Part shown: piece by piece, positions 8,084 to 39,867 of the stretch
How the letters are laid out: every line of letters starts with the position of its first letter
Numbering within the stretch: position 1 is the first letter of the stretch
Source of the DNA: Bacteroidales bacterium
GTDB lineage: Bacteria; Bacteroidota; Bacteroidia; Bacteroidales; Marinilabiliaceae
Reading direction: 5' to 3'
Assembly (NCBI GenBank): GCA_022361295.1
Contig: JAKSBD010000735.1
Coordinates: 1-43,267 of the forward strand
DNA length: 43,267 bases
Translations under genes and position numbers: made by a program
The notes under the pieces: generated by a model
Told to the model about the DNA's origin: nothing
The model's database searches: none
Seen by the model: only the letters and a program-made list of their open reading frames with translations

Positions 8084-9670
8084 TTAAATGGCAACACATT
8101 TCACCACACCCTTGGTTGGTGATGCCAGGTATAAGTTGTCACTGGCATCCACAATCATTGGAATATAGCTACAGCCCTTCACCATTTCTTCAATGCCTTC
8201 TATTTGCCTTGCTCCGTCTTTACTGTAAATCTTCACGCGTGTAGGGTCCTTTTCTACGGTAACAATGGCTCCGTTTGACAGATAAGCTACACTTACCGGA
8301 TTACAACAGCCATGGAAATCGTCTGTCGCCTTACCACGCTTTCCAAAAGCCAGCAATTGCTTTCCCGTCATATCAAAAGCCTGCACCCGGAAAGCGCCGA
8401 GATTAGCCACCAATATTTCATTCTTATCATTCACGCTGAAATCCAGAATCATACAACATGGACGCATATCTTCCAGCGCTGCTTCTTTTGCTCCTGTTTC
8501 AGGATTAAATACACCAATAATACGGTTTTTCCAATCGGCCACCATCAGTTTGTTGTTGGCTACACGGGCTCCTGTTGCTGTTTTTAGACCATCAAGTGCC
8601 ATGGTTCTTAATTCTTCACCTTTAGAATTAAAGACGGCGCATTTATAGCCGGTTGTTTCCATCACTTTCATGGTTTTACCACGAAACTTACGTGTTACCT
8701 CTTTTTGTAGTGGCAGCATCACGTAAATATTGTCTTTTTCGTCAATAGCCATGGTCGTTGGTACAATATCAAAAGCGGGCTTAAAACTGTTTATTTCTTT
8801 ACCACTGCTATCAATGGTTTTAATGGTTCCGTCTTTAGTAAGGGTGCATACATGGTTATTGCTGAGTATGCCCATGTAAATCACATCGAGGTAGGCGGTT
8901 CCGTTAAAGGTATTTTCAACTTTATAGGACACATTACTGGCTGAGATAACCTCTGAGATATTCACATCTTTTGAGTTGGCAAGCTGATCTTTCAATTTAC
9001 GAACATGAGATGAATTAAGTGACGGATCCAAAAGGGCCAGTACTTCTTCTATACCCTTGCTATCCATACCGTGTGTTAAACGGGCAGCCACAGTACCTGA
9101 GAAAAAGGCATCGGGGTACTTCTTGATAAAATCTGTTTGTGCCTTTTTCACTTTAATCTCACGTTCTTCTACCATTTTGGTTACCTCTTCCTGCGACATA
9201 TTGTGCATGGCATTAATATCGCCATAACAGGCTCGTAATGCCTCGTTGAATTCCTTCTCATGATCATTAGCTATTGAACCGATAATCACCTCATTTTCAA
9301 TCTGCATAAATTTTTGGGGTGGCATATCTCCCCATGCAGGCATCTCTTTTTCTACCAGCTTACCTGTATAAGTTGATTCGCCATTTTCGACGAAAAGACC
9401 AAAGCGTACATCCTTATCTTTAATCTCAAGAAGTATTTTTGTTGGTTCATCAACCGCAGGACCGGTAATGGTAAACTGACCGGCTGTCATTTTAAACTCC
9501 TGCGGCTGAGGATCGTTCATATCCTTCTTCAGGCAGATGACGCCTTCACTAATGCCTTCAAGTGTTCCGTTAACGGTCCATCCTTGTTGCTTTTTCGATT
9601 GATTACAGGCCAGCATCAGTACAACCAGCATCAATGCACTTGTTAATTTTAAGATTTTGTTCATGTTCAT
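8084..9670 (-). CDS. DUF4369-type N-terminus plus six-bladed beta-propeller lipoprotein (propeller 1)
   Basis: Lipoprotein with lipobox VLMLAC (Cys22). ATG codons occur at 9670 and 9664 and either could start it. Residues about 30-130 resemble DUF4369, the beta-sandwich domain often placed before thioredoxins in Bacteroidota. From about 250 to the end there is an NHL/6-bladed propeller. Its cysteines are striking: vicinal pairs at 405-406 (RPCC) and 455-456 (FHGCCNP), plus KCAVF, KGC and a final VKCVAI. All of these recur in propeller 2 at 22850-24535. It is the last gene of the PhnD/NapG/NapH unit, 36 bp after NapH. A redox or metal-binding role is inference; the family has no assigned function that I know of. 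Confidence 0.85.
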   Translation of the reverse strand: MNMNKILKLTSALMLVVLMLACNQSKKQQGWTVNGTLEGISEGVICLKKDMNDPQPQEFKMTAGQFTITGPAVDEPTKILLEIKDKDVRFGLFVENGESTYTGKLVEKEMPAWGDMPPQKFMQIENEVIIGSIANDHEKEFNEALRACYGDINAMHNMSQEEVTKMVEEREIKVKKAQTDFIKKYPDAFFSGTVAARLTHGMDSKGIEEVLALLDPSLNSSHVRKLKDQLANSKDVNISEVISASNVSYKVENTFNGTAYLDVIYMGILSNNHVCTLTKDGTIKTIDSSGKEINSFKPAFDIVPTTMAIDEKDNIYVMLPLQKEVTRKFRGKTMKVMETTGYKCAVFNSKGEELRTMALDGLKTATGARVANNKLMVADWKNRIIGVFNPETGAKEAALEDMRPCCMILDFSVNDKNEILVANLGAFRVQAFDMTGKQLLAFGKRGKATDDFHGCCNPVSVAYLSNGAIVTVEKDPTRVKIYSKDGARQIEGIEEMVKGCSYIPMIVDASDNLYLASPTKGVVKCVAI

Positions 9671-9706
9671 ATTTGTTTGGAATAATGACTAAGTCACTTT
9701 TGTATG

Positions 9707-10717
9707 TTATACTATTGCGTCTTTTTTACAGCTCTCGTTACACTTGTTGCACTGTATGCAGTCGTAATTTGAAACGACAGCCAGCTTTGTCTGACGGTCG
9801 ATGGTAATGGCCTGTACCGGACATACCTTTGAGCACAAACCACAATAGACACAGTTATCTTCTTTAATGGTTCGACGCTTAATGGCAAACATTGATACAA
9901 GTCCGAGCAGTACACTGTATGGGCAGATAAAACGACAGAAGGGACGTGGAATAAAGTAGCCAATTACCAGCATGATTCCCATATATATCCAGGTGGTTAT
10001 TAAACCACCAATCAGAATCTTTGACTCCATTGGCTGACCCATCAGGTAAGCAAGGCCTTGCTCAAACCACGACTGCCCGGTAAAAAACAAGGCTTTGTAT
10101 GGGTCCAGCTCACAGGCAAAAAAGCATGCGGAACCGTTGGCCGCAAAATACACTGTCAGTATCAGAATGATTACAGGTGCAAGCTTTAAGGCCGTGTTAA
10201 GTTTTTTGGGCAGACGAATCCACTTTTTATGCTTTTTAGCTTTTCCTATATGCTGTACAGCTCCCATAGGGCATGCTGTGGAGCAAAAAACACGTCCGCC
10301 TGCTAATGCTACCAGCATTGGCCCGATAAACACCACAAAAGCAGTAAGGCTTACCAGAGCGGGCTCGATAATTCCCATGGTAGCATTGGTGATTGCGCCA
10401 ACAGGACAAATACACCCTCCCCTGATAAGGGCCAGGTAAATAAACGTGAATAGCATTAAAATATTCATTGGGCGGCCGCTTTTACGCTTTAGCACAAATA
10501 AAAGCCCTAAGCCCAGTAAAAGCAGTAAAATGCCCAGGTCCACAAACGACATGTACTCCGGTAAGGCATGGTACTCAACCGGAATATAAGCATCTTTAAA
10601 TTCTCTGATGTTCCCCCTTGACAGGTCATCAATTGAATGCGCATCCTGTGCAAAGGAAGAGCTCAATAAAGAAAATAAGAAGCCGAGGACTATAGTTATT
10701 AGTCTAATCTTTTTCAT
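9707..10717 (-). CDS. NapH/MauN-like membrane 4Fe-4S protein
   Basis: Polytopic inner-membrane protein expected to pass electrons from the quinone pool to periplasmic partners. An N-terminal signal or anchor is followed by several membrane helices. It has GGCICPVGAI and FCSTACPMGA Cys motifs and the NapH-type FCRFICPYSVL motif. Two C-terminal ferredoxin clusters follow (CVYCGLCSKVCP and CIQCNKCNESC). Length is 336 aa, near NapH (about 290) plus an N-terminal extension. It lies 94 bp after the NapG-like gene and 36 bp before propeller 1. No NapA, NosZ or other catalytic subunit is nearby, so the terminal acceptor is unknown. Confidence 0.88.
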   Translation of the reverse strand: MKKIRLITIVLGFLFSLLSSSFAQDAHSIDDLSRGNIREFKDAYIPVEYHALPEYMSFVDLGILLLLLGLGLLFVLKRKSGRPMNILMLFTFIYLALIRGGCICPVGAITNATMGIIEPALVSLTAFVVFIGPMLVALAGGRVFCSTACPMGAVQHIGKAKKHKKWIRLPKKLNTALKLAPVIILILTVYFAANGSACFFACELDPYKALFFTGQSWFEQGLAYLMGQPMESKILIGGLITTWIYMGIMLVIGYFIPRPFCRFICPYSVLLGLVSMFAIKRRTIKEDNCVYCGLCSKVCPVQAITIDRQTKLAVVSNYDCIQCNKCNESCKKDAIV

Positions 10718-10811
10718 CTTTTAAAATTCTGGGTGTAAGCATCTACACACGTGATGTTTAATAAATAATATCAACACACGCTGTCACTCTATTAATGAGA
10801 GGCTTACATAA

Positions 10812-11432
10812 TTACATATTCATTCCTTCCAACTCATAGATGCCACGGAAGTTATCCTCAGGTCCGTAATACAGGCGCTCAATAGCACCATCGGGGCATG
10901 CAGAGGCAATATTGCAGGCATTGCAGTTCAGGCATAAATCGGGTCGAATTATCAGGAACATGGATTTGGTTCCCTTGTCGTTACAACCTTTGGCACATTT
11001 ACCGCATCCGGTGCACTTATCATCATCAATATCATAGATAAAATAGCCGTCTTTGCCTCCCGAATAATTCACACGTGTTACTGCATCATGAGGACATATG
11101 CGAAGTCCGTCGCTCATAATTTTTTCTGAAGGAATTTCCTTATTGGTGATATGGCCATAGCAAACCACACAGCATGAACATTTCTTTTGGTCATTAACGG
11201 CTTTAACGGCTGATGGCGTTCGGTTGCAATGAGTTTCACACTTTCCACAGAAGGTACACTTATCGGGGTTAATGGCCCAGACATAACGTGAGCGTGGTCC
11301 TGCTGTCTCCTCATCCATGTGTGCACTTACCACCCGGTAAGCCAATCCACCTAAAGCCAATCCAAAGGCTGCACGTCCCGCATTCAATAAAAAACTGCGA
11401 CGGTTAATCGATTTCTTTTCATTCTGAGCCAT
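10812..11432 (-). CDS. NapG-like periplasmic polyferredoxin with Tat-type signal
   Basis: Probably a periplasmic electron carrier paired with the NapH-like protein. The N-terminus has NRRSFLL followed by a hydrophobic stretch, a twin-arginine-type signal. Four Cys clusters follow: CTFCGKCETHC, CSCCVVC with a later CPHDA, CTGCGKCAKGC and CLNCNAC with a later CPDGA. These suit up to four 4Fe-4S centres. I chose the ATG at 11430-11432; a GTG one codon upstream overlaps the stop of the PhnD-like gene by one base, so the two genes are translationally coupled. The second cluster (KKCSCCVVC) is denser in cysteine than in NapG. Confidence 0.88.
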   Translation of the reverse strand: MAQNEKKSINRRSFLLNAGRAAFGLALGGLAYRVVSAHMDEETAGPRSRYVWAINPDKCTFCGKCETHCNRTPSAVKAVNDQKKCSCCVVCYGHITNKEIPSEKIMSDGLRICPHDAVTRVNYSGGKDGYFIYDIDDDKCTGCGKCAKGCNDKGTKSMFLIIRPDLCLNCNACNIASACPDGAIERLYYGPEDNFRGIYELEGMNM

Positions 11433-11434
11433 CA

Positions 11435-12370
11435 CTACAAAGTTTTAAGGTAAGGAACAGGCGTCCACTTAGCCGGTTTAACAAAGCCATCGCTTAACAT
11501 TGTTTCCGGTGAGTTTTCGTTGGAAACGTTTAACAATGCTTTCTGTAATCGCATGGCATCTTCTTTACTTACCTTGTCACGGTCTATGATTAAGGAGGTT
11601 AAAGGCGTTGCTTCAGTCTCATAGATGATACGGTAGTCATCCGGATTGGCCACATCAACTGCACATGAGGCAAACATGACATAATCGGACACGACAGCTA
11701 CCTCTGCATTTTTATCCATCAGTTCATTGATACACTCCAGACAACTGGATTTGTGATAAATTTTACCTGGCTGTACCCCTTTATTATCCAACACGGCCAA
11801 TGGCTGGTGATATTTCTCATAAGCATCCTTTTCTCCTGCTACAAGTACTTTACCATTGATATCTTCCAGTGTTTGAACAGGAGAATCTTCAGGCACTAAA
11901 AACACGCCTTTTAACCATTGGTTATTAAAGGCATCTTTAATATCGGCCACACGTTCATAGTTTAGATCATGTGCCTTACTTAGCATGTAAACATTCCAGG
12001 GCTTGCAAATGACCCCATCAAATTCCCTACTTTTTATTTTATCCTCCAGGTGGTAAATCTCCTCAAAGTAGGTAATCTCAAGGTTGATATTATGTTTTTC
12101 TTTGAGTTCTTGCTGCAGGTCTTCATACTCACGTGCTGCTACGTTGTGAATACATACGCAGGCTGTAGCCTTGCAATAAGTATCGTTGACAGCAATTTTC
12201 AAGGTTAGCGGTTCGGTATCGGGCGCCGGTTCGCCACAGCATGGTATAAAGGCCGTTTCTTCAAAGCCAATATCTGGCTTTTGATTGTGCTTGTGCTCTG
12301 TTACCGATATACAGGCAAACAGGCTAAAGGCTAATAATAAGCCGGTTAATGTTTTTAGTGTTAGTCTCAT
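11435..12370 (-). CDS. Cys-rich PhnD-like substrate-binding lipoprotein
   Basis: Lipoprotein (lipobox LFAC, Cys20) with the phosphate/phosphonate-binding-like (PhnD) fold: AVNDTY near residue 60, YEDLQQELKEK near 82, DGVICKPW near 118 and ADVAVVS-like text near 224-228. PhnD relatives normally feed an ABC transporter, but no permease or ATPase is here. The gene leads a unit with NapG- and NapH-like genes. The mature protein has nine further cysteines (44, 45, 66, 71, 73, 122, 210, 213, 236), unusual for this fold. Transcription probably starts at the TTAACC promoter (12426-12491). The PhnD-like arsenite sensor AioX shows that such folds can bind soft ligands through Cys, so a metal(loid) or thiol ligand is possible; this is inference. 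Confidence 0.82.
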   Translation of the reverse strand: MRLTLKTLTGLLLAFSLFACISVTEHKHNQKPDIGFEETAFIPCCGEPAPDTEPLTLKIAVNDTYCKATACVCIHNVAAREYEDLQQELKEKHNINLEITYFEEIYHLEDKIKSREFDGVICKPWNVYMLSKAHDLNYERVADIKDAFNNQWLKGVFLVPEDSPVQTLEDINGKVLVAGEKDAYEKYHQPLAVLDNKGVQPGKIYHKSSCLECINELMDKNAEVAVVSDYVMFASCAVDVANPDDYRIIYETEATPLTSLIIDRDKVSKEDAMRLQKALLNVSNENSPETMLSDGFVKPAKWTPVPYLKTL

Positions 12371-12425: not shown

Positions 12426-12491
12426 CAAAATAAAAGAAAGCTTTCTGTAATTCAGGTTAATAGTTGGCTAAACAGGGTTAATTAAGGTTAA
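12426..12491 (-). promoter_or_regulatory. TTAACC-array promoter for the PhnD-like operon
   Basis: Read on the minus strand, three TTAACC repeats start at 12491, 12481 and 12460 (steps of 10 and 21 bp). The -7-like TTATTTTG starts at 12433, 27 bp after the third repeat. The same array and the same 27-bp step occur at 33730, 35478 and 38553. Tandem hexamers one helical turn apart are typical of OmpR-family response-regulator sites; the regulator encoded at 36307-37002 is the natural candidate (inference). Confidence 0.7.
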
Positions 12492-12651: not shown

Positions 12652-14544
12652 TTAAAACATGCTGATTGCAGCTGTAATATTTTCTGTAATGGTTTCAGGA
12701 GGAAGACACATGTCGTTATTGCAGGTCTGGAACTTAATGGTAACCTTTACCTTAACCTCATCCAGATCTTTAAAGCCTTCTGCCATATACTCCTCGCGAG
12801 TGGGTGAATTCAGTTTAAACTTCTGAACAAATTGAACGTCATCGCCCTTATAAACCACCATGCCACCCTTAGGGTGCTCTTTGGGTTTAAGCATTTCTGT
12901 TGTTTTCTCCACCTTATCGCTTTCAAATTCAACAGCAACAACCGTTGGAATAAAACCAGCGGCTACGTTTGCCTTATTCTCAGAATATAAATACCAATCT
13001 TTCTTAAGCTTGAAATCAACCACTAACTCCATTTCTTTTCTGTATTTAATACGCTCAGGAAATGTAATTGAATAATTGACGGGACCGTCCAGCTGGCTGT
13101 GCTTAGACTGCTCATTCGTTAGAACTATGTTTTCGACAGTAGGTAATGCTTTTGTATGTTTTACTGTTGCTTTCTCGGGATTTTTCTTTCCCTCGAACAC
13201 AAAAACATAACCACGGTGACGCATTGTCAGGTATTTATAATCGTCCAGGTTACCCATGTACATTCGCCTGGTCCATCCTTTGGCATCAGCCTCAATTTTC
13301 TCGATGGCACCTTTAACACCACCTGCATATTCAATGGTTCGTCCTGCATCCTTTCCCGGCATTTCAATACCCATTTCTTTAGTCCATCGCCAGGCGATTT
13401 CAGGTACTGCCTCATAACCGTTAATAGTTGGTATTGAAAGACCCATTACAATGTCATTAACACCATCGTTGTTGTAATCCACCACAGTTATCATTGGCTG
13501 ACATCCGGGCATCGCTTTTTCGCCATTAACTTCGGTGAATAGTGGTTGTGTCTGTTCAAAACGAAGACCTTTATCAGTATTCACGCCTCTGAAGAATTCG
13601 ATGGGATGATGACCTTCTTTATAGTACTCATGAGTGATTAGTAAATCCAGAACACCATCGCCATCCCAGTCTACCGGTGTCATATACCCCTTACCAACAC
13701 CCGACATATTAGGATATCGTCCTGTTTTATGTGCTTCTTCAATTTCTTTTTGTGATGGTTGGTCTACATTTAGTATATCTCCGTTGACATGGTAGAGGTA
13801 CTTACGAATGCCAAAAGAAGGTTTCTCTTTAGTTCCAATATTTAATGCTACCCGGAACCCATCAGAACCACCAACAAAAAGATCTAACAGACCATCGCCA
13901 TTAAAATCGGCAAAATCAGCTGATGTATAATTCCAGTATGCCCATGATTCTTCGCTCCAGGGCTCCCTGTCCTGTGCAAATCGTTTACCTTCCTCATATC
14001 CTTTCTGTGGGATAAACTCGCGGGGCATAAAACCTTTGTCTGAGCCTCGCCACATAGAGATTAACCCGGGATTATACTGACCTGATAACAAGTCAAGGTG
14101 ACCATCACCATCCATATCCACCAGGCGGGGATGAATACCAATACAACACCACTGATGATTAGTAATGGTATCGCCATTTACATCGGTGGCATAAAAGTAC
14201 TCACCCGAAAATTCTGGCTTTTTATCAGAACCTTCATTTAAATAGACTTTAATGTATGAACCTGTATCCCCTGTCTCGAACTCACCCAGCATCAGGTCTT
14301 TTTTACCATCGCCGTTCCAGTCAAAGAATGCCGGATAGATTAAACCGTGCTTTTCAATACGTATTTCATTTTTCGTTCCTTCCAGATATTGAGGTTGACC
14401 AGGAATAGGAGCTCCCGGTATATCTGTTGCCACCATCTTTCGCATTTTAGGAAAATTGGTGGTTTTTTCAGTGTCTTCTGCCCTGTTCTGAGCATGAATG
14501 CCAAGCGTTATGGCTGATAATATAATGGTGATAATTAATCTCAT
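12652..14544 (-). CDS. FG-GAP/VCBS repeat protein fused to a DsbD-N-like domain
   Basis: Secreted protein (signal peptide, LGIHAQ cleavage region). Residues about 60-430 carry FG-GAP/VCBS-type repeats with calcium-loop-like motifs such as DWNGDGKKDL, DMDGDGHLDL, DFNGDGLLDL, DWDGDGVLDL and DYNNDGVNDI; these build a seven-bladed propeller. The last 140 residues resemble the N-terminal periplasmic domain of DsbD, ending with TCNNDMCLPPE (Cys608 and Cys613), which matches the redox-active Cys pair before PPE in that family. The DsbD membrane and thioredoxin parts are absent. It follows the thioredoxin gene by 85 bp and probably exchanges electrons with it; that is inference. The fusion is unusual. 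Confidence 0.82.
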   Translation of the reverse strand: MRLIITIILSAITLGIHAQNRAEDTEKTTNFPKMRKMVATDIPGAPIPGQPQYLEGTKNEIRIEKHGLIYPAFFDWNGDGKKDLMLGEFETGDTGSYIKVYLNEGSDKKPEFSGEYFYATDVNGDTITNHQWCCIGIHPRLVDMDGDGHLDLLSGQYNPGLISMWRGSDKGFMPREFIPQKGYEEGKRFAQDREPWSEESWAYWNYTSADFADFNGDGLLDLFVGGSDGFRVALNIGTKEKPSFGIRKYLYHVNGDILNVDQPSQKEIEEAHKTGRYPNMSGVGKGYMTPVDWDGDGVLDLLITHEYYKEGHHPIEFFRGVNTDKGLRFEQTQPLFTEVNGEKAMPGCQPMITVVDYNNDGVNDIVMGLSIPTINGYEAVPEIAWRWTKEMGIEMPGKDAGRTIEYAGGVKGAIEKIEADAKGWTRRMYMGNLDDYKYLTMRHRGYVFVFEGKKNPEKATVKHTKALPTVENIVLTNEQSKHSQLDGPVNYSITFPERIKYRKEMELVVDFKLKKDWYLYSENKANVAAGFIPTVVAVEFESDKVEKTTEMLKPKEHPKGGMVVYKGDDVQFVQKFKLNSPTREEYMAEGFKDLDEVKVKVTIKFQTCNNDMCLPPETITENITAAISMF

Positions 14545-14629: not shown

Positions 14630-15907
14630 TTACTTTAATGCACTGATTTTTTTAGTCATGTTTTCCTTATAATAAGCAGCAGAACGCGCATTATCTTTGG
14701 TTAGATCAATAACGGTGTTATATTGTGCAATAGCCTTCTCATTCTGACCTAACAAGGCATAGCAATCACCCATATTATCAATGAGGGATGTAGCTTTCGG
14801 ATCTAACTTCAGGCCTTCTTTAAGATAGCCCATTAGTCGCTTGACCTGCTTATCTGTTATATATTCTTTTGAAGCGTGCAGGCAATTACCAACAAAAGCC
14901 ATATAGCTTCTTGCGTCCAGTTCGCCTTTTTCTTTCTGGTATGCTTTGTATTTCTCATTCCAGTCGCAATAACCATCAACATCTTTCTGCCCATGCAGGC
15001 AGTAACCCGCCTCACATACATACTTCATCACCGTATAGGTGTCATCAGCATCTGCATCCGGTGTATCCTCATACACTTTTGCCAATCGCCCGTGAACAGC
15101 AGCCAGGTATTCTCTGAATTTCAGGTTACCACTTTGATATGATTCATGCATCGACTGATTATTAGTACGAAAGATAAACATGGATAAATCTTCGTTTGGT
15201 ATTATTTTGGCCCATGCCTCGTAATTATTATAGATATGCTCTACGAAAGGATTACCATTATTTGGCCCGTCAAGATACATTGAGATAATGCGAAAATCAT
15301 CTTTATTCATCATTTCATGAGGCTGCTTTGCTACAAAATACCAGGCTGCCATTTCAGCAAATTTTTCAAACCATGGTCCTTGTTCCTCACGCGGTAAGGT
15401 AGAAGCATAAACTCCACCACTTAAAATTAAACCACGAACAAAATCCAGGTTACGGTTTCCTTTTTTGTATGCTTCATATTTCTCGAGGAAAGGTGTTTCT
15501 TCACCTGTTACCTGTTTTGCAAAACTTAAAAAGAAACCAGCATCGGGAGTTGCACCAACCAGACGTTTGTTCTCAGATCCGTCAGGATTAAAAAATATCA
15601 TTGTTGGAAAACCTTTTACCTCATACTTCTTTGCAAGCTCAGGTCCTTCACCTTTTTCTGCATCAATTTTAAGCGAGATAAAGTGCTTATTGAAGAAAGT
15701 GCCAATTTCTTCGCGAGGAAAGATATCCTTACTCATTTTTTTACATGGACCACACCAAGTGGTATAAAAGTCAACGAACAGTAATTTGTCCTCAGCCTTT
15801 GCTTTTGCCAGCGCTTTGGCAAAGGTGCCATGTTCAAATTCAATACCCTGGGCAAAAATGCTCAGGCTCACTACGGCCGCCACAGCCAATAATAATAGTT
15901 TTTTCAT
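14630..15907 (-). CDS. periplasmic thioredoxin-fold protein with WCGPC and TPR-like C-terminus (Trx 1)
   Basis: Secreted (signal peptide, cleavage near residue 20). A thioredoxin domain at about 25-135 has the active site WCGPC (Cys52, Cys55) and a cis-Pro motif KGFPTMIFF. The rest is helical, ending in a TPR-like repeat (GDCYALLGQNEKAIAQY). The family is a disulfide reductase or isomerase, and the long helical tail suggests a docking surface. It is paralogous to the gene at 21537-22742, with the CxxC at the same residues. It starts the unit that continues into the FG-GAP/DsbD-N gene. The promoter is the ECF-type element at 15954-15986, and the leader carries the shared 14-mer at 15919-15932. 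Confidence 0.88.
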   Translation of the reverse strand: MKKLLLLAVAAVVSLSIFAQGIEFEHGTFAKALAKAKAEDKLLFVDFYTTWCGPCKKMSKDIFPREEIGTFFNKHFISLKIDAEKGEGPELAKKYEVKGFPTMIFFNPDGSENKRLVGATPDAGFFLSFAKQVTGEETPFLEKYEAYKKGNRNLDFVRGLILSGGVYASTLPREEQGPWFEKFAEMAAWYFVAKQPHEMMNKDDFRIISMYLDGPNNGNPFVEHIYNNYEAWAKIIPNEDLSMFIFRTNNQSMHESYQSGNLKFREYLAAVHGRLAKVYEDTPDADADDTYTVMKYVCEAGYCLHGQKDVDGYCDWNEKYKAYQKEKGELDARSYMAFVGNCLHASKEYITDKQVKRLMGYLKEGLKLDPKATSLIDNMGDCYALLGQNEKAIAQYNTVIDLTKDNARSAAYYKENMTKKISALK

Positions 15908-15953: not shown

Positions 15954-15986
15954 AACCATAACACGCTCTTCTGCAAAATGGGTGAC
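15954..15986 (-). promoter_or_regulatory. ECF-sigma-type promoter of thioredoxin 1
   Basis: On the minus strand GTCACCC (15980-15986) and CGTGTTATGGTT (15954-15965) are 14 bp apart. The same two boxes with the same spacer precede fecR (32729-32761) and propeller 2 (24583-24615). The -10 box ends 46 bp before the ATG. The sigma factor at 32900-33454 is the likely reader. Confidence 0.75.
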
Positions 15987-15994: not shown

Positions 15995-16010
15995 GGTTAA
16001 TTTAGGTTAA
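15995..16010 (-). promoter_or_regulatory. tandem TTAACC repeats upstream of the ECF promoter of Trx 1
   Basis: Two TTAACC hexamers 10 bp apart on the minus strand (starting at 16010 and 16000), the second 14 bp before the GTCACCC box. They match the repeats of the four TTAACC-array promoters, so this promoter may answer to both the ECF sigma factor and the response regulator. Confidence 0.55.
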
Positions 16011-16741: not shown

Positions 16742-16749
16742 ATGTTTTT

Positions 16750-16793
16750 TTGATCCAGATCAAAAAAACTCTGTTCAGGCATGCATAGTTTTG
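16750..16793 (+). promoter_or_regulatory. FNR-type box (TTGAT-CCAG-ATCAA) with -7 element
   Basis: A perfect FNR/Crp palindrome (16750-16763) is followed after 22 bp by TAGTTTTG (16786-16793), a Bacteroidota -7 box. A box centre near -41 from the expected start point is the class II activator position. It drives the OM protein gene and probably the radical SAM and ABC-membrane genes behind it. Confidence 0.75.
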
Positions 16794-16810
16794 CAGAAAA
16801 CATTTTGTTT

Positions 16811-17383: not shown

Positions 17384-17405
17384 TCATTAATAAGACATTT
17401 TAATT

Positions 17406-19752: not shown

Positions 19753-19762
19753 TCACCCATTT

Positions 19763-19806
19763 TTGATCCATGTCAAAAAAAACTGATTTCCTATAATCTA
19801 TGTTTG
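19763..19806 (+). promoter_or_regulatory. FNR-type box (TTGAT-CCAT-GTCAA) with -7 element
   Basis: A near-perfect FNR box (19763-19776, one half-site mismatch) is again followed after exactly 22 bp by a -7 box, TATGTTTG (19799-19806). This is the same geometry as at 16750-16793, so the two promoters are probably co-regulated by the protein encoded at 16184-16741. Confidence 0.72.
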
Positions 19807-19837
19807 TACTCACCAATCAATAACAAAAACTTAAAAA

Positions 19838-24535: not shown

Positions 24536-24582
24536 TTTGTTTGTTTTATTTAGGTTATAATACGACAATTAACCAATGTTGA

Positions 24583-32728: not shown

Positions 32729-32761
32729 AACCATAACACGGATCAGGTGAATGTGGGTGAC
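32729..32761 (-). promoter_or_regulatory. ECF-sigma-type promoter of fecR-susCD
   Basis: GTCACCC (32755-32761), 14-bp spacer, CGTGTTATGGTT (32729-32740) on the minus strand, between the sigma gene and fecR. This placement is where autoregulated ECF promoters are expected. One TTAACC lies just upstream in the opposite orientation (32779-32784). Confidence 0.78.
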
Positions 32762-32899: not shown

Positions 32900-33454
32900 T
32901 CAAGAAACAAGAACAATCAATACCCAGTGCATACCTCCAAGTTTCTCGCGAAGGCTTTTATAAGCTCGTTTTTTTAAGGTTTTAACGGTATTAACAGAAA
33001 CATTTAGTTCATCTGCCACTTCATTATTGGTTAACCCGTTCATTGAATGAATAACTACCTCACGGGCTTGTGGCGACAAATGTTGAATAGCTTTATGAAC
33101 TTCAGCATAAACCATTGCTTCAATTTCATGCTCATCTGTATTGTCCGATAGTTGAAACTCTGCCAGTTCTCCTCTGTTGCGCTCTTTTACCTTTTCGTGC
33201 CTAATTATATTTAAACAATTATTACGAACCGATGTAAACAGATAAGAACGCAATGTGCCTTCATTCGAAAAGTTAGCACGATTATTCCAAAGTGTCAGAA
33301 ATACTTCCTGAACCACATCTGCACTGCCTGCTGTATCTTCCAGGTACTTGTATGCAAAAGAACAAAGAGGTGTGTAAAACTCATCAAAGATCTCTTTGAA
33401 AGCCCTTTTGCTGCCCGATTGCATTTTATGTATAGTGTCTGAAAGTTGGTTCAC
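32900..33454 (-). CDS. ECF RNA polymerase sigma factor (RpoE/FecI-like, SusCD-linked)
   Basis: 184 aa with region 2 (AFKEIFDEFYTPLCSFAYKYL, ADVVQEVFLTLWNN) and region 4 (LSPQAREVVIHSMNGLTNNEVADELNVSVNTVKTLKKRAYKSL). The start is GTG at 33452-33454, with no ATG upstream in frame. The later ATG (codon 11) would remove part of the first helix, so GTG is preferred. A -7 box TACATTTG (33499-33506, minus strand) suggests transcription by the housekeeping sigma factor. It probably reads the three GTCACCC-N14-CGTGTTATGGTT promoters. fecR lies 189 bp downstream. Confidence 0.95.
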   Translation of the reverse strand: MNQLSDTIHKMQSGSKRAFKEIFDEFYTPLCSFAYKYLEDTAGSADVVQEVFLTLWNNRANFSNEGTLRSYLFTSVRNNCLNIIRHEKVKERNRGELAEFQLSDNTDEHEIEAMVYAEVHKAIQHLSPQAREVVIHSMNGLTNNEVADELNVSVNTVKTLKKRAYKSLREKLGGMHWVLIVLVS

Positions 33455-33570: not shown

Positions 33571-33690
33571 AGAAAAGTTGTTGAAAAGTTGATGAGTTGA
33601 ATTGCCTAATGACCTATCAACCTAACTACCTATTGATCTAATGACCTAACTACCTATCGATCTAACATATATAATCCCAACATCGAACAT
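33571..33690. repeat. irregular CCTAACTACCTATTGAT-type repeat array, copy B
   Basis: Interleaved units such as CCTAACTACCTATTGATC and ATGACCTAACTACCTATCG, preceded by AAGTTGATGAGTTGAATTGCC and ending in ACATATATAATCCCAACATC. It is the reverse-complement counterpart of array A at 24652-24900, with the same flanks. It lies upstream of the TTAACC promoter at 33730. Confidence 0.75.
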
Positions 33691-33717
33691 CATAAATCAT
33701 AAATCATAAATCATAAA
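33691..33717. repeat. 7-nt tandem repeat, ATAAATC x 4
   Basis: Four copies of CATAAAT in a row between repeat array B and the TTAACC array. No role visible. Confidence 0.65.
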
Positions 33718-33729: not shown

Positions 33730-33795
33730 TTAACCCTAATTAACCTTGATTAGCTAAGCGTTAACCTCTTATCTACCACATATACTATTCTTTTG
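33730..33795 (+). promoter_or_regulatory. TTAACC-array promoter of the OM barrel gene
   Basis: TTAACC repeats start at 33730, 33740 and 33761 (steps 10 and 21; an extra copy is at 33722). TTCTTTTG starts at 33788, 27 bp after the third repeat. Layout equals that at 12426-12491 and 38553-38618. Confidence 0.72.
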
Positions 33796-33818: not shown

Positions 33819-35111
33819 ATGAAAAGAATGAATGACTATATGAAGGGCATAATTATTTGTATGCTATTAAGTAGCTTTTTAACAAAGGCTCAGCAACCCA
33901 ATATGCCCAAATTAAATGTATATCTTGACTGTACCATGTGCGACATGACCTATTTACGACAGGAGATGAATTACCTGAATTTTGCACGTGATCAAAAAGA
34001 TGCTGACGTATATATTATGGTATTGACCCAGAAAACAGGCAGTGGTGGTACCGAGTATGATTTAGAGTTTTCTGGTCAGGGTAAATTTGATGAATTGTTT
34101 TACCGCTCATCGTATATTATGGATATGAATGCAACTGCTGATGAACTTCGTGAAGAATTGAAGATGCACCTTGAGATGGGTTTAGGTAACTTTTGGAGTT
34201 ACATGTTTCAAAAGGTCAGGCCCTATATTCCAGGTGATTCAACACAAACAACAACTGAAGTAATTGAACCTCTTGAGGAGAGTGACAAATGGAATTCATG
34301 GGTATTTAGCCTTGGGTTAAGCGGTAGTCAGAGCGGTGAAGAAACATCAACCATTACTAATATTAATGGTAGTTTATCGGCCAAACGTGTTACAGAGAAA
34401 AACAAGTTTTACCTGAGGGGGAGCTGGGATAAAAACACTTCGGAATTTACCTACGAAATGCCTCCGACTGAGCCGGGTGGTAAACCTATCACCCTGACTA
34501 ACAAATACATTAAAGAAAACCGTTCATTGGATGTACGTAATGTATTTAGTATTTATCGTTTGTGGTCATTGGGAGCCTTTGCAGAAGCAGGAAACTCTGT
34601 TTATGGTAATACTGATTTATACCTGAAGTTTAAGCCTGCCATTGAGTTTAGCGTGTTTCCGTACGAAGAGGCAACGCGTAAACAAATAACCTTATCATAC
34701 CGGGCCGGAGCTGTTTACAATGAATATATTGAGTCAAGTATATTTAATAAAAATGATGAATTGCTTTGGGAACAAAGTGTTGAGTTAGGTGGTAGTTTCA
34801 AACAGAAATGGGGCACCATAAGCGGTTCAGCTACATATGATTCCTTTTTGCACGATAGTGAATTATATGCCCTTAACTTTAGTGTCCATGCTAATTTACG
34901 CATATTTAAAGGGTTCTCATTCAATTTTATGTCTTCTTACAATATTACCCATAACCAGGTTCACCTGCCGGGTGGTGGTTTAAGTATTGATGAGTTATTG
35001 CTCCGTCAGAAGCAAGCCCAATCGGGCTATAACTACTATACCAGCATTGGATTCAGCTATACTTTTGGCTCAATGTTTAATCCGGTTGTCAATCCTCGTT
35101 TTGGGTTTTAA
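33819..35111 (+). CDS. outer-membrane beta-barrel protein with N-terminal CxxCD motif
   Basis: Secreted (signal peptide ending near LTKAQ), 430 aa. The first domain (about 30-125) has the motif DCTMCDMTYLRQE (Cys38, Cys41) followed by NFARDQKDADVYIMV and a GTEYDLEFSGQG strand. I recall this DC-D-YxRxE pattern from a widespread family of Bacteroidota outer-membrane proteins without known function. From about 165 onward alternating amphipathic strands form a barrel, ending in NPRFGF. It is transcribed alone from the TTAACC promoter, with a strong terminator downstream. The CxxC is interesting in a region full of thioredoxins. Confidence 0.8.
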   Translation: MKRMNDYMKGIIICMLLSSFLTKAQQPNMPKLNVYLDCTMCDMTYLRQEMNYLNFARDQKDADVYIMVLTQKTGSGGTEYDLEFSGQGKFDELFYRSSYIMDMNATADELREELKMHLEMGLGNFWSYMFQKVRPYIPGDSTQTTTEVIEPLEESDKWNSWVFSLGLSGSQSGEETSTITNINGSLSAKRVTEKNKFYLRGSWDKNTSEFTYEMPPTEPGGKPITLTNKYIKENRSLDVRNVFSIYRLWSLGAFAEAGNSVYGNTDLYLKFKPAIEFSVFPYEEATRKQITLSYRAGAVYNEYIESSIFNKNDELLWEQSVELGGSFKQKWGTISGSATYDSFLHDSELYALNFSVHANLRIFKGFSFNFMSSYNITHNQVHLPGGGLSIDELLLRQKQAQSGYNYYTSIGFSYTFGSMFNPVVNPRFGF

Positions 35112-35370: not shown

Positions 35371-35476
35371 ATTGATCGAATTGCTGAACTGTCGAAAAGT
35401 TGATGAGTTTAATAGTTGAATTACCTATTGACCTAACAACCTATCGACCTAACGACCTATTATCGTACATCCTGCC
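35371..35476. repeat. irregular CCTATTGACCTAAC-type repeat array, copy C
   Basis: A shorter array with units such as ACCTATTGACCTAACAACC and CTATCGACCTAACGACC, preceded by AAAAGTTGATGAGTTTAATA and ending in GTACATCC. It has the same flank order as arrays A and B, and lies directly upstream of the TTAACC array at 35478. Confidence 0.72.
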
Positions 35477-35477: not shown

Positions 35478-35564
35478 TTAACCCCAATTAACCTTAACTA
35501 ACTTTGATTCACACAGTTTTAACCGGCTATTAACCTAAAATGTGCTGTCGCTCCTGTTTCTTTG
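35478..35564 (+). promoter_or_regulatory. extended TTAACC-array promoter of the TlpA-like gene
   Basis: TTAACC starts at 35478, 35488, 35519 and 35530, with a degenerate CTAACT at 35498, so the steps are 10, 10, 21 and 11. TTTCTTTG starts at 35557, again 27 bp after the proximal repeat. It has more repeats than the other three arrays. Confidence 0.7.
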
Positions 35565-35594: not shown

Positions 35595-36182
35595 ATGAAA
35601 AACGTATTAACCTTAACCATTATCGGGGTATTAACCGTATTGAGTAGTACTGCTCAAAATTGCACTTTTGATGATCTGCAATACGAAAGTATGTATAATG
35701 AATATACCAATGCAGGAGGAGCGTATGATGATGACGGCTGTAGTTTTAACTCGGCAAATCCACATAACAATGTAGGAAATAAGGCCATTCCTTTTAATGT
35801 AAAAGATATCAATGGTACCCGCTTCGCATTAGAGGAATTGAAGGGCAAAATAGTTGTTATCAATTTCTGGTTTATTGACTGTCCTCCATGCGTAATGGAG
35901 ATACCTGTTCTAAATCAAATGGTCGAACACTTTAAAAACGATGACATAGTCTTCTTGGCTATGGCCCTCGATTCTGAAGAGCATTTAAAAACCTTTTTAA
36001 AAACAACTTCGTTCGAATACAACATCATTCCCAACTGCAAAGATATTGTCACTGCATATGGTATTAAGACCTCGCCTGGTCATGTAGTAATAGATAAAAA
36101 CTCACAAATAATTTATACATCAGAAGGCCTTACTTCTGAAACGGTCAACAACCTGCAATCAGCTATTGAAGCGCAGTTATAA
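35595..36182 (+). CDS. TlpA/ResA-like thioredoxin with CPPC active site
   Basis: Secreted, 195 aa (signal peptide ending near STAQ). An AhpC/TSA-type domain fills residues about 65-195: GKIVVINFWFIDCPPC with active-site Cys96 and Cys99, then KTSPGHVVID where a cis-Pro would be expected, shifted to SPG. Three other cysteines lie in the mature protein (23, 53 and 148). ResA/TlpA proteins reduce specific disulfides in the periplasm. The gene has its own TTAACC promoter and stands opposite the response regulator gene. Confidence 0.87.
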   Translation: MKNVLTLTIIGVLTVLSSTAQNCTFDDLQYESMYNEYTNAGGAYDDDGCSFNSANPHNNVGNKAIPFNVKDINGTRFALEELKGKIVVINFWFIDCPPCVMEIPVLNQMVEHFKNDDIVFLAMALDSEEHLKTFLKTTSFEYNIIPNCKDIVTAYGIKTSPGHVVIDKNSQIIYTSEGLTSETVNNLQSAIEAQL

Positions 36183-36306: not shown

Positions 36307-37002
36307 TCAAATCCTGACAAGAAACAAGTACCCCTTTCCTCTCAGGGTTTGAATTTCAATATTTTCATCTTCGCTAAAATAATTACGAAGCTTTTTAATG
36401 TAAACATCCAGGTTACGAGAATTAAAGAACGAGTCATCTCCCCAAATTTTAAGTAATATATCTTTACGTTCTATTATTTGCGAGCCTTTCCCTGCCATCA
36501 TCTGTAAGAGTTCACCTTCGCGACTTGACAGGTTAATGGTGCCCGATGGTGCAATCAACTCATAACGATTAGGCAAGTATTTATAATCGCCAATAATGAT
36601 TTCTTCATTATCATTAGCGGAAACAGCTGGTTGTGCCTGATGGATATTCAGTTGGTTTTTTATCCTGACAATCAACTCCTGAATACTAAAGGGTTTGCGC
36701 ATATAATCAGTACCTCCGGCTTCAAATCCTTTAACCAGATCATCTGTTTCCGTTTTTGCTGTTAAGAAAATGATGGGCAACGATGGATAACGACTTTTAA
36801 TGTGCTGACATAATGATAAACCATCCACATTGGGCAGCATAATATCCAACACACAAAGATCGGGCATAAATGCATCAAAATGATCCATTACCTTACCTCC
36901 ATCGGTTTCCCAAACCACTTCAAAACCTTGCAGTTTAAGTGTATCGTATGTTATCTTACCCAGGTTTGGTTCATCTTCTATGTAAAATATCTTTGTCTTC
37001 AT
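36307..37002 (-). CDS. OmpR/PhoB-family response regulator
   Basis: 231 aa. The receiver domain has the phosphoacceptor Asp53 (CVLDIMLPNVDG), an acidic pair near residues 9-11 (YIEDEP) and the conserved Lys in MRKPF. The C-terminal winged-helix DNA-binding domain (about 135-231) has the Trans_reg_C pattern LSSREGELLQMMAGK, RKDILLKIWGDDSFFNSRNLDVYIKKLR and RGKGYLF. Family members bind tandem hexamers one helical turn apart. The TTAACC arrays in this window are therefore the prime candidates for its sites, one of them beside its kinase gene. It follows the kinase by 27 bp. Confidence 0.95.
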   Translation of the reverse strand: MKTKIFYIEDEPNLGKITYDTLKLQGFEVVWETDGGKVMDHFDAFMPDLCVLDIMLPNVDGLSLCQHIKSRYPSLPIIFLTAKTETDDLVKGFEAGGTDYMRKPFSIQELIVRIKNQLNIHQAQPAVSANDNEEIIIGDYKYLPNRYELIAPSGTINLSSREGELLQMMAGKGSQIIERKDILLKIWGDDSFFNSRNLDVYIKKLRNYFSEDENIEIQTLRGKGYLFLVRI

Positions 37003-37029: not shown

Positions 37030-38511
37030 TTATAATGGTAGTTTGATAGTAAAACGGCAGCCTCCGTTTTCATTGTTATGAGCCTTAATGGTTCCCCCGT
37101 GTTGTTTAATGACCAGTGCCACAAAACTAAGACCTAAGCCAAAACCTTTAATATTGTGCTGGTCTCCTTTGGGCACCCTGAAGAACTTATCAAATACCTT
37201 ATTGATATGATTCTCCGGTATTCCAGGACCATTGTCACTTAAAGATAAAACCACCTGGTTTTGTTCCGTTTTCATATCAATGGCAATCCGGGTATTGTCG
37301 CCTCCATATTTAATGCTGTTATCAATCAGGTTTTTTAATACGCCTTCAAAATACAACCTGTCAATATCGAGGGAGATATCTTGTTCTGCCTTTTTAAAAC
37401 TCACATCAACCTTCTTTTCAACAAAAAGGATATGCATATTTTTAAGGCATTGTTCTATAAAACCACTCAGGTTGGTGGACTCTAATTTCAGGTTTTTCTT
37501 ATTTTTTTCAAGCTTTGAATGGTCAAGAACACGAGACGTAAGCCCGTCCAGTCTGTTCATTTCATTGGCTACCATATCCAGATACTCGGCCATTATTTCA
37601 GGATCGGCCTGTAAACCAAAACTTCGTAAAGCTTCCAGTGCTGCCTTTGCTGTTGCAACAGGTATTTTAAGCTCGTGGGTAATATTATTGATAAAATCAC
37701 TTCTCAAAACACTAAGGTTTATCTGGCGTAAATAGCTACGATAGGTAAATATAAGAGCAAAGGCGGTGATGCTTAATAATATAAATGCAAAAATCAGTTG
37801 AAAAGATATAACACCAAGCAAATACATATGGTATTTACTGAACAGGATGACCAACTCATACTTTTCCGATTCAGCAGCATATTGGTAAATACCCATTTCA
37901 TGCTCAACCGAATCCACCACTAAAGGAGGATCCTGCCATTCAGACTGAATCTCTATGTTATTGTACTCAAGACGCAGCAGGTATAACTTCCTGAACAATT
38001 GCTCATCAAGATTTAACTCAATTGTTTCCGTTTCACTCTCATCGGACCAATAATTTCCAAATCGAATACCGGCCTGAAAAATATAAGTTTGAATAGTAAA
38101 AATCACATTACGGGTGCGATCATCAGGTCGTGTTCGCGGGTATACCGATGTATAATACTCGAAAACCTTATCCAGGATGGCTTCATTCTCATTCAGAACA
38201 TTAATAACAGACTGTATCAGCTCAAGCTTTTTATCTTCCTTCAATACAATATCCTTAAACTGAATGGCTTCCACATTGGCCTTATCCTGATTTTCGATGA
38301 TGGGTGTAATAATCAATTCGTATATTAAACGATCGAACATCTCATTTTTCACATCGTAGTAATAACTGCGTAATTCCCCATTAAGAGTCTGCTTTTCATT
38401 TTTATATTGTGTTACCAGCCAATAGCCTACAAATGCCGAAAGTAAAAGCTGACTGACAACCATCAGCAATACGATACGCATCTTTTTCTTCAGGTACGGA
38501 TTTTTTTCCAT
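37030..38511 (-). CDS. sensor histidine kinase with large periplasmic domain
   Basis: 493 aa. First membrane helix at about 11-33, a periplasmic sensor domain of about 200 residues with no cysteine that I can see, then a second helix near 236-260. The HisKA motif is NNITHELKIPVATAKAALEAL (phosphoacceptor His279). The ATPase has N-box LIDNSIKYG, G1 SDNGPGIP, F-box FDKFFRV and G2 GFGLGLSFV. It phosphorylates the response regulator encoded 27 bp downstream. It is divergent from the CxxC-less thioredoxin gene; the TTAACC array lies in their 126-bp spacer. Confidence 0.95.
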   Translation of the reverse strand: MEKNPYLKKKMRIVLLMVVSQLLLSAFVGYWLVTQYKNEKQTLNGELRSYYYDVKNEMFDRLIYELIITPIIENQDKANVEAIQFKDIVLKEDKKLELIQSVINVLNENEAILDKVFEYYTSVYPRTRPDDRTRNVIFTIQTYIFQAGIRFGNYWSDESETETIELNLDEQLFRKLYLLRLEYNNIEIQSEWQDPPLVVDSVEHEMGIYQYAAESEKYELVILFSKYHMYLLGVISFQLIFAFILLSITAFALIFTYRSYLRQINLSVLRSDFINNITHELKIPVATAKAALEALRSFGLQADPEIMAEYLDMVANEMNRLDGLTSRVLDHSKLEKNKKNLKLESTNLSGFIEQCLKNMHILFVEKKVDVSFKKAEQDISLDIDRLYFEGVLKNLIDNSIKYGGDNTRIAIDMKTEQNQVVLSLSDNGPGIPENHINKVFDKFFRVPKGDQHNIKGFGLGLSFVALVIKQHGGTIKAHNNENGGCRFTIKLPL

Positions 38512-38552: not shown

Positions 38553-38618
38553 TTAACCTTAATTAACCTTGATTGGCCAATTGTTAACTCACTATTTTTC
38601 AGCAAACAGCTTCTTTTG
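38553..38618 (+). promoter_or_regulatory. TTAACC-array promoter of the CxxC-less thioredoxin gene
   Basis: TTAACC at 38553 and 38563 and TTAACT at 38584 (steps 10 and 21), then TTCTTTTG at 38611, 27 bp after the third repeat. It lies in the divergent spacer beside the kinase start, so it might also control the two-component genes. Confidence 0.72.
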
Positions 38619-38637
38619 TGTTCTATAATCGCCATTA

Positions 38638-39867
38638 ATGAGATTTGCTATATTACTCATAACATTAGTAGTATTATCCTGTCATTTACATGCCCAGGGA
38701 ACAGATTGGATTCGCGGTAAACATGATTATCGTGAGGTACTTCAGCTGGCTGTTGAAAAGGACAAACCGGCCTGTTTTGTTGTTTATGCAGATTGGAGCC
38801 GGCAAAGTGAGATATTGCTCAATAATGTGATGACATTAAACCACGTGGCCGACTTCTATAACAGGCATTTTATCAATGTAAAAATAAATGCCGGGGCAAA
38901 GCATGGACGTGCTTTTATAAGCCGGTATAAAGTGGGAAGCATTCCGGCCATCGTGTATATTACGCCCGATGGACAATTGCTCAGAATAGCCAATAATAAG
39001 GGTTTAGTAACTGACAAAGCCATACTAAAGGCGGCGCGCCTGGCCTTAAACGATCCGGATGAGAAAGAATGGTCGTATTACCGTATTAAATATGAAACAG
39101 GACAACGTGACTGGTCATTTCTTGAGCAGTATATCGAAGAGCGCCGGATGGAAACTGGTTTACCTACGCCCTATAACCTTGTTTTGGAATATATCAATGC
39201 CTTACCTGCAACAGCTTTACACAACAGAGAGGACGTGCGTTATTTAATCTACCATCATGCACACTTAAACAATGAGCTGTATGGATTAATGAAGACAAAC
39301 CCGCAAACATTTGCAGAGTTGCATGATACTGAACAGTCCATATTGGTTTTTAACGCCATATTGCATCGTAATATGCATTTGGTCGATAATTGCACAGACG
39401 GCTGCAAAAAGCAACTACTGCAAGATTTTGGCTCAATGGCCTATCCTGCCTTAGAATACTACGAGCTCAATCATTTATTAAACTCCGATAATGCCACTGC
39501 TTTTATCAACGAATATTTCAACTTTATTGCCAAATACAACCTACCTGTTACTTATAACCGCCAGATTTTAATGGTAGTTCTTAAGTCAGAAAAGGTTAAA
39601 AAACAACATATTCTGTTATTGTTGGATGAACTGAATAAGTACACAGGGCAACAGGAGCCGTCAATGATAATAAAAGCTATTAGGGTAAGGTTATTGATTA
39701 AAGCAGGCTATAAAGAGAATGCTTTGGTTACCGCCCGGAATTCTATTTTGGGTATGAATGATTTTCCCAGGTCTAAAGCTGAAGAGCACAGCTTTATTTA
39801 TTTGCAACAGGTGGCCGACGGATATATAAATGAAAGCTTCTCCCGGCTAATGCATTATTTGAAGTAG
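38638..39867 (+). CDS. secreted thioredoxin-fold protein lacking the CxxC (SxxS at the active site)
   Basis: 409 aa with signal peptide ending near HLHAQ. Layout and length match Trx 1 and Trx 2: thioredoxin domain at about 25-135, then a long helical region. The active-site segment reads ADWSRQSEILL, so both catalytic cysteines are serine (Ser54, Ser57), while the cis-Pro region GSIPAIVYI remains. It cannot do dithiol chemistry at this site, and may act as a chaperone, decoy or sensor-side binder. Two nearby cysteines (DNCTDGC, about residue 246-251) could have another role. Its TTAACC promoter lies next to the kinase gene, which hints at a signalling link. Confidence 0.82.
   Translation: MRFAILLITLVVLSCHLHAQGTDWIRGKHDYREVLQLAVEKDKPACFVVYADWSRQSEILLNNVMTLNHVADFYNRHFINVKINAGAKHGRAFISRYKVGSIPAIVYITPDGQLLRIANNKGLVTDKAILKAARLALNDPDEKEWSYYRIKYETGQRDWSFLEQYIEERRMETGLPTPYNLVLEYINALPATALHNREDVRYLIYHHAHLNNELYGLMKTNPQTFAELHDTEQSILVFNAILHRNMHLVDNCTDGCKKQLLQDFGSMAYPALEYYELNHLLNSDNATAFINEYFNFIAKYNLPVTYNRQILMVVLKSEKVKKQHILLLLDELNKYTGQQEPSMIIKAIRVRLLIKAGYKENALVTARNSILGMNDFPRSKAEEHSFIYLQQVADGYINESFSRLMHYLK

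Follow-up and report, generated by a model that had tools for sequence, protein, structure and literature searches.

Which function unites an outer-membrane importer, a series of thioredoxin-fold proteins and an inner-membrane iron-sulphur electron wire that are encoded side by side in a member of the Bacteroidales? The question is raised by positions 8084-39867 of a 43,267-nucleotide stretch of DNA (contig JAKSBD010000735.1 of assembly GCA_022361295.1, family Marinilabiliaceae; the whole stretch is hereafter called the window), a region that comprises 24 main open reading frames (ORFs) according to the ORF list. A preliminary description had assigned its genes to one envelope system acting on a cysteine-, metal- or metalloid-containing substrate. 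Our analysis supports this interpretation in so far as it describes a system for thiol-redox chemistry and electron transfer linked to SusCD, and does not support it as regards a metal or metalloid. Judging from the sequence, we favour, with slightly less than even confidence, a co-regulated envelope system that would import a thiol/disulfide substrate, most likely cysteine-containing peptides, and process it reductively.

Protein families were assigned with Pfam and NCBIfam to 30 proteins of the window (domain report limit E≤0.001), and all of the genes named in the preliminary description were found in place. The names TrxTPR, propA/B and type b were coined in this analysis. The importer is encoded on the minus strand by four adjacent genes, for (i) an extracytoplasmic function (ECF) sigma factor (32900-33454; Sigma70_r2 and r4_2), (ii) a FecR anti-sigma factor (31547-32710; FecR and FecR_C), (iii) a SusC protein with an STN domain (27691-31434; Plug and CarbopepD_reg_2) and (iv) a SusD protein (26042-27673; SusD_RagB and SusD-like_3). 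The STN match (25.4 bits) is slightly below the cut-off of 28.4 but lies at the expected position, and the four genes have the composition of an importer with a trans-envelope ECF switch.

The minus strand also encodes the presumed periplasmic and membrane partners of the importer. These are (i) a lipoprotein (lipobox FFAC) composed of DUF4369 and a thioredoxin domain with the motif WCGPC (24901-25962; DUF4369 and AhpC-TSA), (ii) propA (22850-24568), in which a DUF4369 N-terminal part recognised by Pfam precedes an NHL propeller with a CCNP motif, identified by alignments, (iii) TrxTPR2 (21537-22742; Thioredoxin), with WCGPC and a long C-terminal part, (iv) TrxTPR1 (14630-15907; Thioredoxin and TPR), with WCGPC and a TPR C-terminal part, (v) an FG-GAP protein with a C-terminal DsbD_N domain and a vicinal HQWCC site (12652-14544; FG-GAP_3, and DsbD_N at 34.6 bits versus a cut-off of 25), (vi) a PhnD-like lipoprotein (11435-12370; Phosphonate-bd), (vii) a NapG-like periplasmic ferredoxin with an RRSFL twin-arginine start (10812-11435; Fer4_7), (viii) a NapH-like membrane ferredoxin (9707-10717; Fer4_5) and (ix) propB (8084-9670), a lipoprotein with a DUF4369-like N-terminal part and a CCNP NHL propeller, assigned from alignments and an NHL match of 24.9 bits. 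Translation of propA, whose promoter lies at 24583-24615, is likely to start at an ATG near 24535 instead of a TTG. Both propA and propB encode lipoproteins with a DUF4369-like start and an NHL-like propeller end, where related proteins have a thioredoxin.

What joins these genes is a conserved order and two shared regulatory sites. One site, the direct repeat TTAACCNNAATTAACC (the box), has a spacing that resembles an OmpR-family site. It is present in 10 exact copies in the 6.04-Mb genome, six of which fall within the 43-kb window (binomial 2.8e-11), while a reversed-pattern control gave no copy in the same genome. The genome search placed window copies upstream of the genes for PhnD (12476-12491), TrxTPR1 (15995-16010) and propA (24634-24649), all on the minus strand, and, on the plus strand, upstream of a 430-amino-acid (aa) protein gene (33730-33745), upstream of a TlpA-like gene (35478-35493) and between a histidine kinase gene and the gene of a 409-aa thioredoxin-fold protein (38553-38568). 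The other site, GTCACCC-N14-CGTGTTATGG, resembles an ECF promoter. The whole genome has three copies of it, all in the window on the minus strand, before TrxTPR1 (15954-15986), propA (24583-24615) and FecR (32729-32761), and the elements before FecR and TrxTPR1 occur in the related strain McD6.26 too. The box is situated just upstream of the ECF-type element of TrxTPR1 (8 bp) and propA (18 bp), which suggests that these two genes may be under double control. The shared promoters proposed in the preliminary description are therefore concentrated in the window far beyond chance.

Further genes of the locus encode a 430-aa envelope protein with a CTMC motif and no Pfam family (33819-35111, plus strand), a TlpA-like redoxin with a CPPC motif (35595-36182, plus strand; AhpC-TSA), an OmpR-type response regulator (36307-37002, minus strand; Response_reg and Trans_reg_C) and a histidine kinase (37030-38511, minus strand; HisKA and HATPase_c). 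The last gene of the region encodes the 409-aa thioredoxin-fold protein (38638-39867, plus strand; Thioredoxin_2 at 21.8 bits, under the cut-off). Thus the five thioredoxin-fold proteins expected here are all present (at 14630, 21537, 24901, 35595 and 38638), but the last of them has WSRQS in place of WCxxC and contains no CxxC, as is also the case for its relatives in the genomes G604 and G602.

The box was found in six of the 14 genomes drawn from the genus, and each of these six has one copy adjoining a histidine kinase/response regulator pair. The response regulator thus has homologues beside the box in five other genomes, and the regulators at this position in the five relatives are 73-84% identical to that of the window. 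Many copies of the box extend to an additional TTGATTGGC and a TTAAC half-site. Among 27 box sites, 16 lie upstream of thioredoxin-fold, propeller or PhnD genes, three upstream of M16 peptidase genes (all three confirmed by Pfam) and three between the histidine kinase gene and an outer-membrane barrel gene. The other five are found at the 430-aa gene, at a 491-aa gene, at a second position near TlpA in G604, at a contig end and at a 56-aa TlpA-like remnant in G602 (L086, 2960-3130), where the box precedes an ORF resembling a shortened TlpA-like redoxin. Outside the window, the boxes of the own genome on contigs C39, C405 (two copies) and C700 have no extended half-sites, and both C405 copies are reversed relative to their genes. 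The C405 cluster (L054) is another thiol cluster, encoding a DsbD_N protein, two DUF4369-thioredoxin-like proteins, the 491-aa protein, which has no Pfam family, and a thioredoxin. In three genomes (L055, 3-7201, on C39 of the own genome; L081; L084) the boxed M16 peptidase gene is located downstream of genes for multiheme cytochrome, Rieske-like and cytochrome b-like proteins. Imperfect short tandem repeats resembling GTTAGGTCGATAG, with units of about 8, 16 and 24 bases, occupy the intergenic regions upstream of propA (24686-24847), the 430-aa gene (33605-33717) and the TlpA-like gene (35423-35461).

The gene order is conserved in Carboxylicivirga sp. McD6.26, of which 39 kb of colinear sequence was compared. 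This locus, headed by a sigma factor gene 74.9% identical to that of the window, has the order ECF-FecR-SusC-SusD-DUF4369-thioredoxin-propA-TrxTPR2-(two other genes)-TrxTPR1-FG-GAP/DsbD_N-PhnD-NapG-NapH-propB, and its propA is broken by one TAG. Together with the two regulatory sites, this colinearity supports the earlier view that the genes belong together as one system. Six plus-strand genes of the window at 16184-21195, between TrxTPR1 and TrxTPR2, were considered as members and excluded because nothing equivalent to them occurs in the 39 kb of McD6.26 (the remainder of that genome not having been searched); they are probably not part of the system. These genes encode a Crp-like protein, a 200-aa protein, a B12-binding radical SAM protein, an ABC membrane region, a 175-aa lipoprotein and a glyoxalase, and of the six the Crp-like gene alone adjoins a shared site, namely the intergenic box that it has in common with TrxTPR1.

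More distant loci contain subsets of the same genes. Ancylomarina euxinus and Ancylomarina sp. DW003 have SusC, SusD, one or more thioredoxins, a propeller, PhnD, NapG and NapH in this order, and in G136, G666, G771 and G685 PhnD-NapG-NapH occurs with a propeller on shorter contigs. In all eight genomes in which this PhnD was found, which were pooled from several searches and are not a random sample, PhnD, NapG, NapH and a CCNP propeller are neighbours. The expected co-occurrence of the paired-cysteine propeller with PhnD-like and NapGH-like genes therefore holds in these eight genomes with PhnD as the starting point, but it does not hold throughout with the propeller as the starting point. 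The congener G602 carries two SusCD-thioredoxin-propeller loci, and no match to PhnD or NapG was obtained in this 94% complete genome. On this comparison of gene content, PhnD-NapGH is an add-on to the import and thiol part.

The predicted proteins of the add-on are rich in conserved cysteines. In the PhnD-like protein, C71, C73, C210, C236 and the lipid-bearing C20 are invariant in 8/8 sequences, C66 and C122 are kept in seven and C213 in six of them. We propose that the four invariant cysteines could hold an iron-sulphur cluster. NapG is a secreted protein with four 4Fe-4S motifs, whose 16 cysteines are kept in 11/11 sequences; NapH, a membrane protein by its hydropathy, carries two Cys-x3-Cys-Pro motifs as well as two C-terminal clusters, and 15 of its cysteines are kept in 10/10 sequences. 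Neither reaches its NCBIfam cut-off (NapG, 33.2 of 269; NapH, 67.7 of 213.05 for TIGR02163). The C-terminal clusters of NapH are predicted by loop charge to be cytoplasmic, provided that residues 261-279 do not form a span. Comparison with solved structures gave only ferredoxin-like stretches for NapG and no match below E 0.01 for the PhnD-like protein. Neither NapA nor NapB, which would point to a periplasmic nitrate reductase, was found among the 30 proteins scanned, and no FMN-binding family was detected in or beside NapH among the window proteins.

Of 25 propellers from both operon types described here, 24 have retained the CCNP pair (the McD6.26 propA was entered as its second piece only, and a split third propeller of G602, L082 4259-5876, was omitted). 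Against solved structures, the propellers match NHL proteins (Thin, TRIM2/3, Brat, TRIM71) and the entries Tako8 and Ika8, with E values from 3e-11 to 8e-4; such matches indicate a predicted fold and not a function. In the second operon type, present in the own genome (C273), G599 and G603, a distant NapG (37% identity) is encoded in the order propeller(FAGCCNP)-NapG-NapH. The own-genome cluster (L121, 18-12628) has the same order as L123 and L125, the triad recurs in L124, and G666 has a propeller-NapG-NapH triad on a 3.6-kb contig. Neighbours in C273 encode, according to Pfam, PQQ-like propellers, a squalene-cyclase-repeat protein, an 803-aa NuoE/NuoF-like protein and a Fer2 protein, and size-matched genes stand beside the triad in G599 and G603. 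The NuoE/NuoF-like neighbour suggests an NADH-linked donor for the second operon type. The propellers of this type share with those of the window FxxCCNP, followed by EK and R, and a few glycines, while the other cysteines are missing. Since CCNP is kept while nearly all else has diverged, it would be the part relevant to NapGH, and the CCNP propeller is likely to be a partner of NapGH.

The thiol chemistry of the locus is illuminated by G685, a genome from a different family of the order that contains several SusC-propeller loci. Eight in-frame TGA codons were found there in genes homologous to TrxTPR1/2 and to the FG-GAP gene, in three thioredoxins as W-TGA-GPC and in five FG-GAP proteins as W-TGA-C, and 8/8 align to a cysteine of the window protein (WCGPC or HQWCC). 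The coordinates listed in G685 for these codons, together with the selA and tRNA genes named below, are L104 3221, 9261 and 12640; L105 5715; L106 10977, 14909 and 16247; L107 5429; and L103 1286-2816. Across 49 G685 alignments a single further in-frame stop was seen, a TAG in a SusC, and 121 alignments of 13 other loci contain no TGA and one stop, a TAG. On the G685 contig bearing two of the TGA loci, selA (538.9 bits; cut-off 267.9) adjoins a selenocysteine tRNA gene (60.2 bits; cut-off 47). The sequence CCACAGTTTGTGG, able to form a hairpin, follows the TGA at 5/5 FG-GAP sites; no bacterial selenocysteine insertion sequence family reached its Rfam score in G685. These proteins are candidate selenoproteins, in which TGA would be read as selenocysteine, and the W-U-C FG-GAP proteins perhaps constitute a new family of such proteins. 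Because selenocysteine is found in oxidoreductase active sites (PMC1794560), its presence at these positions would mean that the WCC site and the thioredoxin cysteines are redox-active, and the thiol-redox character assigned to the locus in the preliminary description is strengthened.

The proposed mechanism would operate as follows. SusCD would take the substrate across the outer membrane, the STN/FecR/ECF switch would report it, and the two-component system would contribute an envelope signal via the shared OmpR-type box. In the periplasm, the thioredoxins, the FG-GAP protein with its vicinal WCC and the CCNP propellers would handle the substrate reductively. In some species an inner-membrane wire would be added, along which electrons may pass from a cytosolic donor to NapH, to periplasmic NapG and then to the four-cysteine PhnD-like lipoprotein and/or the CCNP propeller, either of which might carry a cofactor, and into a thiol relay. 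The thiol-redox part of this mechanism is well supported, and the features of NapH and NapG would fit a supply of electrons across the inner membrane. As for the substrate, we lean towards peptides because M16 peptidase genes are boxed in three genomes and S9 peptidase genes occur in two related loci, both in G685, where they lie near SusC, between the FG-GAP and propeller genes. Casein use has been reported for Ancylomarina sp. M2P (PMC11129491). The metal or metalloid part of the earlier substrate proposal found no support in any of our tests.

Several observations weigh against this interpretation. The substrates of SusCD systems are not readable from sequence. The G602 propellers occur without PhnD or NapG, so the propeller would not require NapGH, the DUF4369-thioredoxin of the same genome has no CxxC, and one thioredoxin-fold protein of the window has lost its cysteines. 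Residues 261-279 of NapH are among the hydrophobic stretches counted mechanically, and a true span at this place would put the C-terminal clusters in the periplasm. The cysteine pattern of the PhnD-like protein has no testable cofactor precedent. Candidate selenocysteine codons are present in one genome only and are not found in PhnD, NapG, NapH or the propellers, and since one TAG interrupts a G685 SusC, some of the stops may reflect decay.

Other functions were weighed against the same data. NapH and NapG might instead form a respiratory outlet, sending menaquinol or NADH electrons via the cysteine proteins to an oxidised sulfur compound (polysulfide, tetrathionate or an organic disulfide) that is either imported or located outside the cell, for energy or redox balance. 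Reductases are among the partners served by NapH-like modules in a published set (PMC8238504), and in the own genome a NuoE/F-like diaphorase is encoded beside NapG-NapH of the second operon type. We nevertheless consider such an outlet unlikely, as Pfam recognised no catalytic oxidoreductase subunit at 8084-39867, and ECF/FecR/STN control suits import and not a standard respiratory chain. Handling of metals or metalloids, with SusCD importing a metal complex, vicinal cysteines binding a soft metal or oxyanion and NapGH reducing it, was the inference of the preliminary description and is suggested by the vicinal cysteine pairs and the cysteine-rich binding protein. It has a low probability in our estimation, given that Pfam identified none of the proteins of the same region as a metal transporter, metallochaperone or metal regulator, that the regulon includes M16 peptidases, DUF4369-thioredoxin and DsbD_N genes, and that selenocysteine at WCC and WCGPC would favour redox catalysis over metal storage.

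The abundance of thioredoxin-fold genes in the histidine kinase regulon and the putative selenocysteine forms of one relative could also be explained by a defence against envelope thiol stress, in which the thioredoxin, FG-GAP and propeller proteins would repair oxidised envelope proteins and SusCD would be a mere sensor or scavenger. This sits poorly with the conserved link to SusCD, the substrate-type ECF/FecR control and the peptidases in the regulon and related loci, and seems to us quite improbable. Least credible, and very unlikely, is a maturation pathway in which NapGH, PhnD and the thioredoxins would assemble the CC propellers or load them. A comparable service to methylamine dehydrogenase is ascribed to MauD/E/L/M/N, and here too a propeller, a thioredoxin-fold protein and NapG/H-type ferredoxins occur together, with the CCNP propeller adjoining NapG-NapH in two operon types; the G602 propellers, on the other hand, exist without NapG or PhnD, and no mau structural gene (MauA/MauB) was recognised by Pfam among the window proteins.

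The favoured reading, reductive processing of an imported thiol/disulfide substrate, has a bolder extension, which we regard as doubtful though conceivable. PhnD, NapG, NapH and the CCNP propeller might constitute a new trans-envelope relay, by which cytosolic iron-sulphur electrons would reduce periplasmic dithiols (in one lineage a selenol-thiol) without DsbD/CcdA. The four-cysteine PhnD, derived from a substrate-binding fold, would act like a ferredoxin:disulfide reductase, the vicinal cysteines on two unrelated propeller types (CCNP on NHL, WCC/WUC on FG-GAP) would be its redox partners, and the relay would drive reductive processing of TonB-imported peptides.

How far the system is spread was estimated from samples of genomes: two draws from the order (198 and 393 genomes), and draws from the phylum (395), the family (71), the family of G136 (12) and, as above, the genus (14). 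The PhnD profile found its target in 2/198 genomes of the order, 2/71 of the family and 2/12 of the G136 family, and a profile search of genome contigs yielded three loci. A wide Bacteroidota PhnD family was considered and rejected: in the phylum draw of 395 genomes, with five candidates scored in each, only the own copy and one ordinary PhnD matched, the latter in G454, with no cysteine at all and with an adjoining ABC ATPase gene. With three candidates scored in each genome, the profile of the full propeller protein reached E≤1e-20 in 15 further genomes of the phylum draw, every match being confined to query positions up to 246, which correspond to the DUF4369/linker half; with the propeller part alone, 4/393 genomes of the order were found, and all four carry this type of NapG. 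Spread by plasmids was likewise rejected, as PhnD and NapG had no plasmid match.

Each component has known counterparts, from which the locus departs in its company. As in SusCD loci under ECF/FecR/STN control, SusC (STN and plug), SusD, FecR and the sigma factor stand in the usual order, but the companions are thiol-redox proteins and ferredoxins, and neither a glycoside hydrolase nor a lyase, as expected of a polysaccharide utilisation locus, lies at 8084-39867. An alpha-L-fucosidase with an F5/8 C domain, at 712-2952, is outside the locus. The earlier statement that the region holds no respiratory catalytic subunit and no glycosidase agrees with the Pfam results for its proteins. The PhnD-like protein has the Pfam fold of phosphonate-binding proteins (PF12974; 68.7 bits versus a cut-off of 27), but it is a lipoprotein with four invariant cysteines and, in 8/8 genomes, has NapG/NapH as neighbours and not the ATPase and permease of a PhnCDE transporter. 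DsbD/CcdA is generally regarded as the route that feeds thiol reduction in the periplasm. The locus shares with this pathway a DsbD_N domain with a C-x4-C pair and periplasmic thioredoxin proteins, whereas the scan, which covered the window proteins and not the remainder of the genome, recognised neither a DsbD membrane domain nor CcdA.

NapH-like modules with many partners have been described in a set selected for flavinylation, where most of them are without an assigned partner (PMC8238504). The window proteins resemble the modules of that set in the Fer4_5 domain and C-terminal 4Fe-4S clusters of NapH, the four 4Fe-4S motifs and twin-arginine start of NapG, and the modular choice of partners; they differ from them in that no NapA or FMN-binding domain occurs among the scanned proteins, and the partners are a PhnD-like cysteine lipoprotein, a CCNP propeller and a SusCD locus. 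With the selenoproteins having cysteine homologues, as treated in PMC1794560, the G685 proteins share a TGA at a cysteine position of thioredoxin-fold proteins and the presence of selA and a selenocysteine tRNA, but they stand apart in that the FG-GAP proteins have the TGA at a vicinal W-U-C site. In the literature listings we recognised no description of NapGH joined to PhnD, SusCD or CCNP propellers, nor of FG-GAP selenoproteins. The system would represent a variant form of extracytosolic electron transfer of the NapGH type, coupled to a SusCD locus with thiol-redox proteins, of which no prior description was recognised.

In some anaerobic Bacteroidota, then, an outer-membrane importer and thioredoxin-like proteins are joined to what is predicted to be an inner-membrane iron-sulphur electron wire. 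The locus provides a defined set of NapGH partners and a regulon that includes a dedicated two-component system. It also has cultured hosts (Ancylomarina) and a relative whose candidate selenocysteine forms would indicate the catalytic residues. It thereby opens to direct test the role of NapGH-type wires outside respiration and the substrates of the many thioredoxin-linked SusCD loci.

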